Shown one piece after another: positions 31,444 through 41,178 of a DNA stretch of 64,000 nt. Position 1 is the stretch's first letter. Each line of letters opens with the position of its first letter. Source of the DNA: Methanolobus sp. (GTDB taxonomy: Archaea > Halobacteriota > Methanosarcinia > Methanosarcinales > Methanosarcinaceae); assembly GCF_016278385.1 (NCBI RefSeq), contig NZ_JADQBY010000032.1:1-64000 (forward strand), given 5' to 3'. The notes under the pieces were generated by a model. That model did not search any database. It saw only the letters and a list, made by a program, of their open reading frames with translations, and was not told the DNA's origin. A program made the translations under genes and the position numbers.

Positions 31444-31814
31444 TATTCGTTGATTCATTAATTTATTAATTCGCCAATCCATTGATCAATAACTAAAAAA
31501 CAACCAATAAGGTCGGATGGCTTTGTGCCACAAAGACTTACATACTTTTCTTAAAAGAACAGACGATATTTTCAGGAAAGACTCCTTCCTTTTCTTTCAT
31601 CTCCAGAATATATAGGTAACCCCAATGTTGCTGCATTTTCTGCATTAAAAGACAAAGAACTATCCATTTTTGTCTTTGGAAAAACAGAAAATGATAGCTA
31701 GTACTCATTCACAATAAATTTTAATTCACAATTGTTAAATATGTGAAACTCATAGTCTTAGTTGTTAGGGAACATTTAAGTTATCCAGTACCAGATATAG
31801 ATACGGGGAATCAT
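31444..31814. other. intergenic region with possible gene remnant
   Basis: An open plus-strand frame from 31497 to 31704 without a start reads protein-like sequence ending NPNVAAFSAL then KDKELSIFVFGKTENDS. This resembles the last beta strands of a glycoside hydrolase or similar enzyme, but the match is weak. The rest is promoter DNA for the tusA operon. Confidence 0.3.
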
Positions 31815-32039
31815 ATGACTGAAACGAATATTGATGTTAGAGGACAAACTTGTCCAGTCCCTCTTGTGGAGTGCCGTAAAGCTGTTAAAAAAGCTGCGCC
31901 TGGCGATGAAATTGTCATACTTGGCACCCATCCAGCTTCCAAAAAAGAGATACCAATGGCATGTGAGGCAATGGGACTTGAAGTTGTGAATGTAGAAGAA
32001 AATACTGACAAAGAATGGAAGATACGTATCAAGAAATGA
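31815..32039 (+). CDS. tusA: TusA-family sulfur carrier protein
   Basis: A 74-residue TusA/SirA/YedF protein. The CPxP motif is GQTCPVPLVECRKA with the sulfur-carrying Cys13, followed by the typical PGDEIVILGTHPASKKEIP and a C-terminal EWKIRIKK strand. The start at 31815 follows CGGGGA and removes a 24-residue upstream extension that has no family counterpart. TusA carries persulfide sulfur from a cysteine desulfurase to later acceptors. It is the first of four genes (tusA, dsrE-like, iscS-like, iscU-like), which implies a shared sulfur-transfer job. Confidence 0.93.
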   Translation: MTETNIDVRGQTCPVPLVECRKAVKKAAPGDEIVILGTHPASKKEIPMACEAMGLEVVNVEENTDKEWKIRIKK

Positions 32040-32074: not shown

Positions 32075-32494
32075 ATGACAGATAAGGCTGTAATAGTGGT
32101 CCATAGTGGGGACCTTGATAAAATATACAGTGCAATGATAGTTGCAAACGGCGCACTTTCAATGGGAATGGATGCTTCCCTCTTCTTTACGTTCTGGGGC
32201 CTTCAGTGCCTGAAGAAGAACGGACTGGATAAAGGCCCGCTTTCCAGGATGAATTTGTTGGGACTGGGTAAGTGGATGGTCAAAAGCAGGATGAAAAAAG
32301 CCAACGTTGTTTCTCTTGAGAAACTGATGGAAGACTACAAAGAACTTGGCGGAAAGGTTATTGCCTGCGAGATGACCATGGAAATTATGGGAATAAAACC
32401 TGAGCAACTTAACCTTGAATGGATAGATGAATATGGGGCAGTAGGCACTTACATAATGGAAGCAAAAGATGCTAAGATAACACTTTTCATATGA
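32075..32494 (+). CDS. DsrE/DsrF-like (DsrE2) sulfur-transfer protein
   Basis: A 139-residue DsrE-fold protein. FTFWGLQCLKK near residue 38 and the conserved cysteine in ACEMTMEIMGI near residue 99 are features of the DsrE2 group often found next to TusA and rhodaneses. Such proteins pass persulfide or sense redox state in the cytoplasm. An AGTGGGGA ribosome binding site precedes the ATG, 36 bases after tusA. Confidence 0.88.
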   Translation: MTDKAVIVVHSGDLDKIYSAMIVANGALSMGMDASLFFTFWGLQCLKKNGLDKGPLSRMNLLGLGKWMVKSRMKKANVVSLEKLMEDYKELGGKVIACEMTMEIMGIKPEQLNLEWIDEYGAVGTYIMEAKDAKITLFI

Positions 32495-32559: not shown

Positions 32560-33726
32560 ATGTTCGACAAAATGATATATCTCGATAATTCCGCCAGTAC
32601 CCGATTGGATGAAAAGGTAATGGACGCAATGAAACCTTACTACTTTGATACCTATGCGGTAGCTACATCCGAATTCGGTTATTCCATGGGTATTGAAGCT
32701 AAAGAAGGGCTAGAAGAAGCCAGAGAAACCATTGCATCCTCCATTGGTGCCTCTGCAGAGGAAATCGTATTCACATCCGGCGATACAGAAGCAAGTAACA
32801 TGGCTATCAAAGGTGTTCTAGCTGCTTTAAAGAAAAAGAAAGGAGAGCACATCGTCGTATCTAAAATTGAAGATTTTTCCGTCCTGAACACGGCAAAGAA
32901 CCTTGAAAAACTGGGATATGGTGTTGATTACATTAGTGTCAATGCAGAAGGAATTGTAGATCTTGATGAACTTAAAAGCAAGATACGTGATGACACTGTC
33001 CTTGTGTCCATTCAGCATGCAAACCAGGAAATTGGTACCCTTCAGGATCTCGACTCAATTGCAAAAATATGCAAGGAAAAAGATGTACTGTTTCATACTG
33101 ATGCCACACACAGTTACGCGCGGGTTCCAATAGATGTATCAAAAACACCGGTAGACCTGATATCAATGTCAGCTCATACAATTCACGGTCCAAGAGGTGT
33201 CGGTGCATTGTATGTCCGCAAAGGCACACCTCTTGATAAATGGATGGATGGAGGATTCCAGGAAACAAATCGCCGTGGAGGACTTGAGAACATTCCAGGA
33301 GCTGTAGGTTTTGCAAAGGCAGTTGAACTTGCAACTGAAAAAGAGACTGAGTTCCTTGTATCACTCAGGGATTATACCATCAAAAGAGTATTTGAAGAAA
33401 TACCTCATGTAACCCTTAACGGATGTAAAACGCAGAGAACTCCCCAAAATGCAAATATCACATTCCATTATGTAGAGGGTGAATCAATGACTTTGCATCT
33501 TGATATGAGAGGGTTTGCAGTGAGTACCGGATCAGCTTGCTTTAGCCGTTCACTTGAAGCCAGCCATGTGATACTTGGCATTGGTGGTGATCATGAAAGA
33601 GCACACGGTTCCATCAGGTTCACATTCGGACGCTATAACAGCATGGAAGACGTGGACGCAGTTGTAGAGGCAATTAAGGAAATTGTAAGCCAGCTAAGGG
33701 CAATCAGTCCCCTGTTTAATAAATGA
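32560..33726 (+). CDS. iscS: IscS-like cysteine desulfurase lacking the PLP-binding lysine
   Basis: A 388-residue fold-type I aminotransferase-like protein of the IscS/NifS family: YLDNSAST at the N-terminus, SGDTEASNMAIKG, FHTDATHSYARVPID, the active-site loop GSACFSRSLEASHV with catalytic Cys327, and the C-terminal SIRFTFGRYNS. The normal SxHK(I/L)xGPxG Schiff-base motif reads SAHTIHGPRG, so Thr207 replaces the PLP lysine, and the His that stacks on PLP is Asp105 (KIEDFSV). The cysteine loop is intact. A lysine-less IscS is known in Archaeoglobus fulgidus, where it still binds IscU. It is followed by the iscU gene nine bases later. It may be a sulfur-accepting scaffold rather than an ordinary desulfurase. 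Confidence 0.93.
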   Translation: MFDKMIYLDNSASTRLDEKVMDAMKPYYFDTYAVATSEFGYSMGIEAKEGLEEARETIASSIGASAEEIVFTSGDTEASNMAIKGVLAALKKKKGEHIVVSKIEDFSVLNTAKNLEKLGYGVDYISVNAEGIVDLDELKSKIRDDTVLVSIQHANQEIGTLQDLDSIAKICKEKDVLFHTDATHSYARVPIDVSKTPVDLISMSAHTIHGPRGVGALYVRKGTPLDKWMDGGFQETNRRGGLENIPGAVGFAKAVELATEKETEFLVSLRDYTIKRVFEEIPHVTLNGCKTQRTPQNANITFHYVEGESMTLHLDMRGFAVSTGSACFSRSLEASHVILGIGGDHERAHGSIRFTFGRYNSMEDVDAVVEAIKEIVSQLRAISPLFNK

Positions 33727-33735
33727 GGTGAGAAA

Positions 33736-34371
33736 ATGAAATTCCCATATACTGAGAAAGTGCTTGAACACTTTAAGAATCCCCGAAATGTCGGGAAAAT
33801 GGAAAATCCTGATGGTAAGGGACTGGAAGGCAGTCCTGCATGTGGAGACATGGTTGCCGTTTACTTACAGGTTGACCCGGATACACATATAATTGAGGAT
33901 ATCAAATTTGAATCATACGGTTGTGCCTCCAACATTGCTACTGCTTCCATAATAACAGAACTTGCAAAAGGCAAGACCATTGAGGAAGCAAAGAAGATAT
34001 CATGGCAGGAAGCCACAGATCAGCTTGGAGGACTGCCACCTGTAAAAGCACACTGTTCCGTGCTTGCGGTCGAAGGTCTGAGAGCCGCTATCCGTGACTA
34101 TGAGGAAAAGCACGGTCTTGTAACCGAACAGGAACCTACCACCGTAGATGTTATCAGAAGCAGGTTGAAGCATGTCATGAACCCAATGGCCGGACTTGAC
34201 ATTGTCAGAACCGAACTTGTAACAAAGATGGAGATTAATGATGGTGTTGTAAGGATACTTATCGATCTGCCATCTAATCACCAATTTGCAACAAACATCA
34301 AAGAAGAGGTTCTCGAGAAGATCGAATCCCTCTGGGATGTTAAAGAGGTCAACGTTGTCTTTACTGAGTAA
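33736..34371 (+). CDS. iscU: IscU-type Fe-S scaffold fused to a DUF59/MIP18-like domain
   Basis: A 211-residue protein. Residues 1-125 are an IscU scaffold with Cys36 and Asp38 (GSPACGDMV), Cys63 (YGCASNIA) and Cys107 (LPPVKAHCSVLA), the three ligand cysteines of the family. Residues about 135-211 match the DUF59/MIP18 fold (VIRSRLKHVMNPMAGLDIVRTELV, then alternating strands ending VKEVNVVFTE), with no CxxC and none of the usual DUF59 cysteine. IscU assembles Fe-S clusters; DUF59 proteins help deliver them. The fusion suggests assembly and hand-off in one polypeptide. A GGTGAG site overlaps the iscS stop, so translation is coupled. A terminator follows. Confidence 0.9.
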   Translation: MKFPYTEKVLEHFKNPRNVGKMENPDGKGLEGSPACGDMVAVYLQVDPDTHIIEDIKFESYGCASNIATASIITELAKGKTIEEAKKISWQEATDQLGGLPPVKAHCSVLAVEGLRAAIRDYEEKHGLVTEQEPTTVDVIRSRLKHVMNPMAGLDIVRTELVTKMEINDGVVRILIDLPSNHQFATNIKEEVLEKIESLWDVKEVNVVFTE

Positions 34372-37515: not shown

Positions 37516-38313
37516 ATGAGAGTTAATCCGAATCTGAGTGTAAATGAAAATGATCTGAAAGAATTCCAGGATATCATAGGATTCCAGTTCAATGACACCA
37601 GCTACCTTATACAGGCTTTGTTGCACGGCTCACTTTTTAGCGGGGACAAAGAAAAGTTGAGTGCTTTTAGGAAAGCCAATAATCTTGAAAACAAGGACTA
37701 TGAGAAACTTGAGTATCTGGGAGATTCGGTACTGGGTATGATAATTGCCGAATATGCATACCATGACAGTAAAATTAACGAATATGCAAAAGCAAATAGT
37801 CTTACAATTGAGGGTGTTTCAACAAAGATCAGGACGATTCTTGCTTCAAACGAAGGACTAAAACCCGTAGCCAGAAAAATAAAACTCTCAAGATTTGTGC
37901 TCTCAGATGGGCATGTAAATATCAACGGTAAACTATCTGATATTATGGAAGCACTAATCGGTGCCATATATATTGACGGAGGATCTTTTATTGATTCTCA
38001 AACCAATATAATCAGATATGATAATAACTATTCTGTTGTTAGGGATTTTGTTTACAAGTTCTTTGATATAGACGGTGCCTTGGAAAAGGTCCCCGCTTTA
38101 AATCCTAAAGGAATTATACAGGAAATGTTCCACAAGAATGGGCTTGGAAATCCATGTTATATGGTTATTGAGGAAGAAGGACCTGACCATGAAAAACAAT
38201 TTACTATAGGTCTTTATGTTGGTGACATGTTACTGGCAAAAGGTTCGGGCAACAGTAAAAGCAAAGCAGAGAAGGCTGCGGCAGATCTATATCTGAGCTG
38301 CCTTGAAAAATAA
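37516..38313 (+). CDS. rnc: ribonuclease III
   Basis: A 265-residue RNase III. The signature motif reads EKLEYLGDSVL with Glu63, Glu66 and Asp70, and the second motif SDIMEALIGAIYIDGG gives Asp142 and Glu145, so all metal-binding acids known from bacterial enzymes are present. Residues about 195-262 form a double-stranded-RNA-binding domain (NPKGIIQEMFHKNGLGNPCY, then KGSGNSKSKAEKAAADLYL). Residues about 40-60 are an insert compared with the bacterial enzyme. It should cleave dsRNA, for example rRNA precursors or sense-antisense pairs. Archaea normally use a splicing-type endonuclease instead, so a complete RNase III is uncommon. A GTGGGTAAAA site precedes the start. Confidence 0.92.
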   Translation: MRVNPNLSVNENDLKEFQDIIGFQFNDTSYLIQALLHGSLFSGDKEKLSAFRKANNLENKDYEKLEYLGDSVLGMIIAEYAYHDSKINEYAKANSLTIEGVSTKIRTILASNEGLKPVARKIKLSRFVLSDGHVNINGKLSDIMEALIGAIYIDGGSFIDSQTNIIRYDNNYSVVRDFVYKFFDIDGALEKVPALNPKGIIQEMFHKNGLGNPCYMVIEEEGPDHEKQFTIGLYVGDMLLAKGSGNSKSKAEKAAADLYLSCLEK

Positions 38314-39813: not shown

Positions 39814-41178
39814 TCAATACTCAGGAGTTTCAACTTTTCCCATGAAGAGAATACAACCGGTTCTCTTGTCTTCTATGAAGAACATGAAAGGATGATCTGC
39901 CTTGAATTCCACTACCTTCACCTCTGGTGGTTCTACCATTGATGCCGTTTCATATATAATTGCAGTTGCTGCCGCTGCTTCAGTGCCTTCTTCCTGCACA
40001 TCGATAAATGCCTGATGAATTACTGCACTCAACTTTAAACCATAACCTTCCGGCACTTTCCGGACATCGTATATATATCGGAAATCGGCTGAATCCGTAA
40101 ACGCATCTACAATTCCCATATTGCTCAATTGTTCTGAAAGTTCGGTCTCTTTATCAAATGTGAATTTTGGTAACCAGAGATGCACCTCATTTATTGAATT
40201 CATAGATGATTTAAGGTTATTGTATTCAGAGAGTGAGAACCTGTTTTCAAAATCTGAAATGTTGTTTTCCCGGGGAAGAACAATATACATAGACAGATAA
40301 CGACCTTCGTAGGGAAGTTCTACAATTTGTTCATTACTATTTTCAGCATAACTGTACCCCTGCATCGTTGAATACATCGTGTCTACAGAATTTATGTTTC
40401 CATTTGAAGAATAGAACTGCTCTTTTTTGGTATTCCGCGGATCAAATTGTTCGGACCATTTTCCTTTGAAGTAAATTGCATTTGTGATTATCATCTCAGT
40501 ATCTGAGCTTATTGAATCTGCCGGGACCAAATCTTTGATTTTGTTATTGGTCTTTTCTTCAACCCATCCATTAATGATAGCAACGGACTGCTTCGATTCA
40601 CCTGCAAAATCAAGGTCCCTTATATTTCCACTGTAATATGTCTCCAAGTTACTCACAAACTGCGTATTCAACGGGTATTTTTCCTGTACCCAGAGAGCAT
40701 TTGCAGTTTTCAGATCATACTGGTCATTAGCTGAATTAATTGTATCCATCATTTCTTTTGAACTTACTTCAAGGACAGGCTTACTGAGTGGATAGTAAAG
40801 AACATTCGATATCTGTTCTTTTGTAGAGCCTTCGGCACCGTCATAACAAATAGCCATTGCAGTGAATATGCTGTAAGGTGAAAAGAAAGCGTTCATGTCC
40901 TTGCTCTTAATATTAGCATACATGTCAAAAGCAAAGGCATTATTCGCACTTGCAATATCGTAATTAGCTGTTGATGTTGCATTTGTCAGATAGTTGTAGT
41001 TTACAGTTTCCGGCTCTGCAGAATTTGCACTTGTGTCTGCATCTGTAGAAATAAGATGACTTGTGTTTGTGGTATTGCCCATGTCGACATTTGTGCCTGA
41101 ATCAGTACCTATGCATCCAACACCGAATAAGAGTAACATACAAAACATTACTATTAGTATAAGTTTAGTTTTCTTCAT
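39814..41178 (-). CDS. serpin-family protease inhibitor lipoprotein
   Basis: A 454-residue serpin. The signal helix ends in FGVGC, so Cys22 is probably lipidated and the inhibitor hangs outside the membrane on a Thr/Asn/Ser-rich linker (about 23-75). The serpin core begins near NNAFAFDMYANI. The hinge EEGTEAAAAT is the form found in inhibitory serpins, and counting 17 residues from P17 puts the scissile bond at about Ala412-Ser413, which would suit an elastase- or subtilisin-like target. The closing signature DHPFMFFIEDKRTGCILFMGKV is intact. It may protect surface proteins from foreign proteases. Confidence 0.92.
   Translation of the reverse strand: MKKTKLILIVMFCMLLLFGVGCIGTDSGTNVDMGNTTNTSHLISTDADTSANSAEPETVNYNYLTNATSTANYDIASANNAFAFDMYANIKSKDMNAFFSPYSIFTAMAICYDGAEGSTKEQISNVLYYPLSKPVLEVSSKEMMDTINSANDQYDLKTANALWVQEKYPLNTQFVSNLETYYSGNIRDLDFAGESKQSVAIINGWVEEKTNNKIKDLVPADSISSDTEMIITNAIYFKGKWSEQFDPRNTKKEQFYSSNGNINSVDTMYSTMQGYSYAENSNEQIVELPYEGRYLSMYIVLPRENNISDFENRFSLSEYNNLKSSMNSINEVHLWLPKFTFDKETELSEQLSNMGIVDAFTDSADFRYIYDVRKVPEGYGLKLSAVIHQAFIDVQEEGTEAAAATAIIYETASMVEPPEVKVVEFKADHPFMFFIEDKRTGCILFMGKVETPEY

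Follow-up and report, generated by a model that had tools for sequence, protein, structure and literature searches.

A homologue of the cysteine desulfurase IscS that has lost its Schiff-base lysine (here IscS*) is encoded in a four-gene operon, tusA-dsrE-iscS*-iscU, within a 64,000-nucleotide stretch of Methanolobus sp. DNA (assembly GCF_016278385.1, contig NZ_JADQBY010000032.1, positions 1 to 64,000). This whole stretch is hereafter called the window. We propose that the four genes form a cysteine-independent module for Fe-S cluster assembly, in which IscS* would dispense with PLP and serve as a dock and relay for persulfide, and we put the probability of this reading at about 0.6. Its basis is the gene set, the residues concerned and their conservation, a linkage to sulfur carriers that recurs across clades, an intact fold, and purifying selection.

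How Fe-S clusters are made without cysteine in sulfide-dwelling anaerobes is an open question. Some methanogens have no desulfurase of any kind, and deletion of all SufBC in Methanosarcina acetivorans had no visible effect on growth (PMC10500019). A compact and conserved set, in which a disarmed IscS stands between sulfur carriers and an IscU scaffold, points to specific proteins for experiment, and orthologues are present in a genetically tractable host.

A four-gene operon

All four genes lie on the + strand, with intergenic gaps of 35, 65, and 9 bases. The first, tusA (31815..32039, +), encodes the sulfur carrier TusA (PF01206, 80.3 bits), which has 74 aa when read from the ATG at 31815 that we chose from the sequence; with the GTG at 31743 as start codon, it would have 98 aa. 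Its CPxP cysteine, found as CPVP, is conserved across the aligned family set (n=65). The second, dsrE (32075..32494, +), encodes a soluble DsrE2-like sulfur carrier of 139 aa (PF13686, 122.4 bits; PF02635, 29.9 bits), whose Cys98 is conserved both in the family set (n=67) and in the set of Asp-type loci described below (n=15). The third, iscS* (32560..33726, +), encodes 388 aa and was characterized by ORF call, Pfam, an AlphaFold2 model, and Foldseek.

The last gene, iscU-DUF59 (33736..34371, +; 211 aa), combines an IscU domain (PF01592, 150.4 bits, residues 5-126) with a DUF59 domain (PF01883, FeS_assembly_P, 44.9 bits, residues 139-207), and carries the ligands Cys36, Asp38, Cys63, His106, and Cys107. 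Where family members have DUF59, it is always in the same ORF as IscU (113/113). The cysteines that a relay would use are conserved along the whole operon, namely the CPxP cysteine of TusA, Cys98 of DsrE, Cys327 of IscS*, and Cys36, Cys63, and Cys107 of IscU.

Residues, fold, and PLP pocket of IscS*

IscS* has a full-length class V aminotransferase fold, with Aminotran_5 (PF00266) spanning residues 6-368 at 261.6 bits. In Foldseek, the AlphaFold2 model (pLDDT 85.6, pTM 0.88; low confidence at residues 33-40 and in the Cys loop) aligns at a TM of ~0.9 with E. coli IscS, human NFS1 complexes, the IscS-TusA complex, and Archaeoglobus fulgidus IscS(-IscU), and we therefore regard the fold as intact. 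By sequence, the closest solved structures are recent ones of cysteine desulfurases (PDB 9wep, 9wer, 9wew, and others); the 9wep/9wer/9wew series apparently represents several variant forms of one protein and offers possible dimer templates.

Two features of a group I desulfurase, the fold and the mobile-loop Cys, are present in IscS*, whereas Lys206, His104, and Gln183 (E. coli IscS numbering) are replaced. The Schiff-base Lys206 corresponds to Thr207 (codon ACA, 33178..33180, +) in the motif SAHTIHGPRG; this alignment column holds T in 32 and A in 1 of 33 Thr-type rows, against K in 28/28 canonical rows. At the position of the PLP-stacking His104 stands Asp105 (codon GAT, 32872..32874, +), within KIEDFSVL, and the column is D or N throughout the Thr-type family and H in all canonical rows. 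Gln183 has become His184 (codon 33109..33111, +), with H in 33/33 Thr-type rows versus Q in 28/28 canonical rows. The persulfide cysteine of the mobile loop, Cys327 (codon 33538..33540, +), lies in STGSACFSRS and is invariant in the family alignment.

In addition, the Thr of RxGTEN, which is T in 28/28 canonical rows, has given way to Leu242 (codon 33283..33285, +), and nearly all Thr-type rows have L, V, or I here. In group I desulfurases, this Thr binds the phosphate group of PLP in the partner subunit. Relative to the 28 canonical rows, the Thr family likewise has a fixed Gln for the second Asn of HANNE, and the GNPSS loop is altered to AVATSEFG. The PLP chemistry of IscS* would appear to have been lost through four changes together (Thr for Lys206, Asp for His104, His for Gln183, and Leu, Val, or Ile for the phosphate Thr). 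In E. coli IscS, the substitutions K206A, H104Q, and Q183E each abolish desulfurase activity (PMC9978102), and all three positions are altered in IscS*. Its scores are also below the curated NCBIfam cut-offs, at 447.6 against 530.75 for NifS and 384.1 against 643.2 for IscS.

Some PLP contacts are retained in the Thr family, with Asn155, Asp181, and Arg353 invariant and Thr76 and His206 mostly kept, so that PLP or PMP could still bind non-covalently. Examination of the alignment for a relocated lysine revealed Lys227 (codon 33238..33240, +) as the sole new family-invariant lysine; it is near the GG motif and is K in 33/33 Thr-type rows, where canonical rows have S, N, or P. As it aligns just past the arginine patch R220/R223/R225 of E. 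coli IscS, the binding site of CyaY and Fdx (PMC5176006), Lys227 is likely to be a partner-surface residue.

An initial annotation of this DNA had named Thr207 in place of the lysine and Asp105 in place of the stacking His, had called the Cys327 loop and the fold intact, and had placed the gene in an operon with TusA, DsrE, and IscU. The codons, the structural matches, and the Pfam domains on the + strand agree with it on all of these points. What it did not contain is the change from Gln183 to His184, Leu242 for the phosphate Thr, the fusion of DUF59 to IscU, and how widely the family is spread.

Spread and constancy of the Thr-type family

Thr-type orthologues of 59-93% identity are found in both Archaea and Bacteria, and a lysine at the position of Thr207 occurs in 0/119 loci. 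This number combines 42 further Methanosarcinaceae loci with 77 from a GTDB scan, and some species are in both sets. The GTDB loci (59-91% identity) have Thr in all except three, which carry Ala, Ser, and Pro. The Methanosarcinaceae loci keep the signature ED at 104-105, NQE(I/V)G at 155-159, DATH at 181-184, and (H/Y)TIHGP at 206-211. Between Methanolobus orthologues of iscS*, omega is 0.03-0.06, similar to that of the canonical paralogue; IscS* is under purifying selection. Sequencing error, chance, or pseudogene decay can be ruled out as causes of the lysine loss, since all these loci share a residue other than lysine, Thr in nearly every case, at so low an omega.

The nearest named relatives of the gene are from Methanolobus species. 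Archaeal hosts comprise Methanosarcinaceae, Methanomassiliicoccales, Methanofastidiosia, other Thermoplasmatota, Heimdallarchaeota, and one Altiarchaeales genome, and bacterial hosts include Bacillota (Acetobacterium, Anaerobium, Peptoclostridium, and others), Chloroflexota, Thermodesulfobacteriota, Atribacterota, Actinomycetota, and further phyla. Because several hosts are isolates, contamination of MAGs cannot account for this spread. Among 299 genomes drawn around Acetobacterium, five (the centre included) have the Thr type, which is set off from canonical IscS by a score gap of 550 versus 402 bits. An orphan Thr-type IscS is present in Desulfosporosinus sp. Tol-M (L116:7989-9158); its Cys loop differs (STGSVCFN), and neither tusA nor dsrE nor iscU lies close by.

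Linkage to TusA and DsrE

Neighbors were counted with HMMs. At the 69 GTDB loci of the Thr type with enough upstream sequence, TusA is found upstream in 62/69, DsrE in 62/69, and both in 61/69, while IscU follows downstream in 67/69. No other neighbor is conserved across the set, and the conserved neighbors include no rhodanese, Dsr, or Hdr-like gene. Methanococcoides-like genomes have no tusA-dsrE upstream; the orthologous pair is located elsewhere in 7/7 genomes tested (DsrE at 75-79% identity).

A second lysine-less clade, the Asp or A. fulgidus type, reads SSNDIYGP, keeps His104, and occurs in Archaeoglobi and relatives. TusA or DsrE is adjacent at 29/29 scoreable loci of this type (24 with TusA, 14 with DsrE), and IscU at 28/28. 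One of the two iscS copies of A. fulgidus belongs to a tusA-dsrE-iscS-iscU set (L227), and the other copy in that genome is identical to 4EB5. A third lysine-less type, with Gln (SGNQVHG), was encountered once on a long branch, in a 1.2 Mb genome (L205:2202-3425, G087), and here TusA lies beside the IscU.

Lysine-bearing IscS from the same phylum had TusA or DsrE on its own strand in 0/74 loci, and the single TusA/DsrE neighbor found near these loci is part of a divergent Asp-type operon. In an independent draw of Bacillota, the full set was present at 5/5 Thr-type loci and IscU alone at 5/5 canonical loci. Both kinds can be seen at one locus (L226:2409-6007, G217), where a canonical iscS adjoins a tusA-dsrE-iscS(Asp)-iscU operon in back-to-back orientation. 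Within Methanosarcinaceae, the Thr and Asp types seem to replace each other; where a genus has no Thr type, the Asp type is present together with TusA and DsrE (L262, L263, and L267, from G012, G029, and G003).

The initial annotation had also suggested that sulfide or the persulfide of a partner takes the place of cysteine as sulfur source, with IscS as acceptor and dock. At the level of gene comparison, the idea of a partner persulfide now has strong support, in that both lysine-less clades and the Gln variant are linked to TusA and/or DsrE and lysine-bearing IscS is not.

Origins of the lysine-less state

Full support is found for both the Thr clade and the Asp clade. In the best tree, lysine-bearing rows lie between the two, which suggests that the lysine was lost twice; the Gln protein is sister to the Thr clade. 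A single lysine-less clade, and with it one origin, is disfavored and not rejected (p-AU 0.065). When lysine loss and TusA/DsrE linkage are compared by phylogenetically independent contrasts, only 1-2 pairs result and the comparison has no power; two or perhaps three events on the tree underlie the linkage, which are too few for a phylogenetic test, and we give the raw Fisher value no weight.

The A. fulgidus IscS to which the initial annotation pointed is a genuine precedent. That protein is lysine-less, with Asp at this position both in the literature cited in PMC7585200 and in the sequence of PDB 4EB5, and PMC7585200 also cites it as having no desulfurase activity. Like IscS*, it has the IscS fold (4EB5, 4EB7, 4HVK, 4R5F), an intact Cys loop, an IscU partner, and TusA/DsrE neighbors. 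It differs, however, in having Asp and not Thr, Asn for His206, His104 kept, Gln183 changed to Ala, and Arg354 lost; its IscU has no DUF59, and the best tree puts it in a clade distinct from the Thr type. The pair of residues at the lysine site distinguishes the two families, as it is HT in the Thr type and ND in all 30 Asp-type loci (SSND).

A putative sulfur relay and its rivals

A fixed four-gene set with a disarmed IscS suggests the building of Fe-S clusters without cysteine sulfur. We infer that PLP is not used, that sulfur flows from TusA and DsrE through IscS* to IscU, and that it comes from sulfide or polysulfide and not from cysteine. In the mechanism proposed here, IscS* would have given up PLP-dependent desulfuration, and its fold would serve as persulfide relay and dock. 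Sulfane sulfur held on the CPxP cysteine of TusA and on Cys98 of DsrE would be handed to the mobile-loop Cys327 of IscS*, this loop would swing to the docked IscU, and a cluster would be built on Cys36, Asp38, Cys63, and Cys107; the fused DUF59 domain may then help to pass this cluster onward. In E. coli IscS, the sites for TusA and IscU are adjacent and competing, and both are within reach of the Cys328 loop (PMC11302665), so that one loop can serve both partners. Cluster assembly fed by sulfide has been described before, both for methanogens (PMC12192291) and for an iscS mutant of E. coli (PMC13015791). If the relay reading is true, then the fold of IscS is important as a hub for sulfur independent of its own chemistry, and the puzzling A. 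fulgidus IscS gains a likely sulfur donor.

The remainder of the host genome (2.9 Mb, scored 100% complete) also bears on the proposal. It encodes one other group I IscS, which is lysine-bearing and 50% identical to IscS*. The IscU beside this second IscS (L002:1107-1460, G000:C14) has lost Cys36 and His106, reading GSTVDGD and KDRCS in place of the usual PACGD and KAHCS, and the same loss is seen in the corresponding IscU of other Methanolobus-like genomes. As no IscU genes beyond these two were found in the host genome, its complete scaffold sits with the lysine-less IscS. In larger Methanosarcinaceae genomes, a His-containing variant, AGNPH-GD, occupies the IscU Cys position.

The location of the only complete IscU speaks for the relay reading, as does a Methanofastidiosum MAG (possibly incomplete) that has the module and no other recognizable desulfurase. 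Other points count against it: the retained PLP contacts, the new invariant Lys227, the small number of tree events behind the TusA/DsrE linkage, and the ordinary desulfurase of most hosts, which could charge TusA from cysteine. Our search found no published biochemistry of any Thr-type protein, and in M. acetivorans proteomes only IscS2/IscU2 were consistently detected (PMC7585200). Recombinant IscS1 of that organism formed insoluble inclusion bodies (Deere and co-workers, PMC7585200).

A wider statement, which we hold only tentatively and at slightly less than even odds, is that a PLP-free TusA-DsrE-IscS*-IscU/DUF59 system extends across anaerobic Archaea and Bacteria with a former desulfurase as a relay fed by inorganic sulfane sulfur, that this conversion took place at least twice (Thr and Asp types), and that the system holds the only complete IscU scaffold of Methanolobus.

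The main rival is a role as dock and ligand, modelled on A. fulgidus, in which Cys327 ligates the nascent [2Fe-2S] cluster on IscU, free sulfide is the source, and TusA/DsrE serve another branch. In the A. fulgidus IscS-IscU structures, IscS contributes a cysteine ligand, and the protein has no desulfurase activity (summarized in PMC7585200 and PMC5176006); methanogens live in sulfide that is able to feed cluster assembly. This rival offers no reason, however, for two thiol carriers with conserved cysteines to accompany the lysine-less IscS of both clades but not its lysine-bearing counterparts, and we consider it unlikely as a full account; relay and dock could act together.

Cysteine could also be the ultimate sulfur source by way of TusA, because most organisms with the module hold an ordinary desulfurase (lysine-bearing IscS or SufS), as the host does, and E. 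coli IscS is able to charge TusA (PMC11302665). TusA, DsrE, and IscS* would then merely carry sulfur from the cell's ordinary desulfurase to IscU-DUF59. We think this quite improbable, given that a second IscS is missing at E <= 1e-60 from Methanococcoides-like genomes, which have only SufS-like group II members, and given the Methanofastidiosum MAG mentioned above.

Poorer still are the prospects of IscS* as a PLP enzyme that binds PLP or PMP non-covalently through Asp181, His206, Asn155, and Arg353 and uses His184 or Lys227 as base for a weak or altered desulfuration or another reaction: Asp181, Asn155, and Arg353 are invariant, His184 and Lys227 newly so, lysine-free PLP enzymes exist, and A. 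fulgidus IscS reportedly retained pyridoxamine phosphate on purification, but the phosphate Thr is lost besides the Lys, His, and Gln, each of which is fatal when mutated in E. coli IscS. Selenium mobilization, considered because TusA-like genes of Methanococcus maripaludis respond to selenium (PMC11097638), found no support in the conserved neighborhood of iscS*.

Relation to known systems

The core observation is partly known, because M. acetivorans IscS1 (MA0808) has been published as lacking the PLP-binding residues, the lysine included, and was likened to A. fulgidus IscS (PMC7585200). IscS1/IscU1 (MA0808/MA0807) resemble the proteins described here in the motif STGSACFS and the missing lysine, with an IscU1 of 24.2 kDa there and an IscU-DUF59 of 211 aa here (PMC7585200). 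Orthologues of IscS* at 68-71% identity occur in larger Methanosarcinaceae genomes, probably Methanosarcina. Unlike here, the neighbors of IscS1/IscU1 are given in that article as of unknown function, and it mentions neither TusA or DsrE nor any relatives beyond methanogens and Archaeoglobus (PMC7585200). In a literature search that covered a minority of subscription journals, nothing was found that links lysine-less IscS to TusA/DsrE or describes bacterial members or the eroded PLP pocket; the cross-domain breadth and the TusA/DsrE linkage appear to be new.

Canonical IscS/NifS/NFS1 (group I) share with IscS* the fold, the mobile Cys loop, and the IscU partner, whereas IscS* has its PLP lysine, His104, Gln183, and phosphate Thr replaced, is linked to TusA/DsrE, and scores below the NCBIfam cut-offs. 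The TusA/DsrE sets of sulfur oxidizers are sulfur carriers. As in those sets, TusA here adjoins a DsrE-family protein and each has a conserved cysteine; unlike them, the pair adjoins IscS*-IscU, occurs in anaerobes, and has no rhodanese, Dsr, or Hdr-like conserved neighbor.

The minimal Fe-S systems MIS and SMS are likewise anaerobic and have few components, with an IscU-type scaffold in MIS and sulfide as the source in SMS (PMC12192291). MIS pairs a cysteine desulfurase with its IscU-type scaffold, whereas here the desulfurase residues are absent and TusA and DsrE are present; SMS uses a SufBC-type scaffold, in contrast to the IscU system of the module.

Two further genes in the window are worth recording. 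An RNase III of bacterial type, equipped with a dsRNA-binding domain (37516-38313, +; PF14622, PF00636, PF00035) is unusual in archaea, and a serpin with a lipoprotein-like N-terminus (39814-41178, -; PF00079, 385 bits) is encoded in this archaeon.
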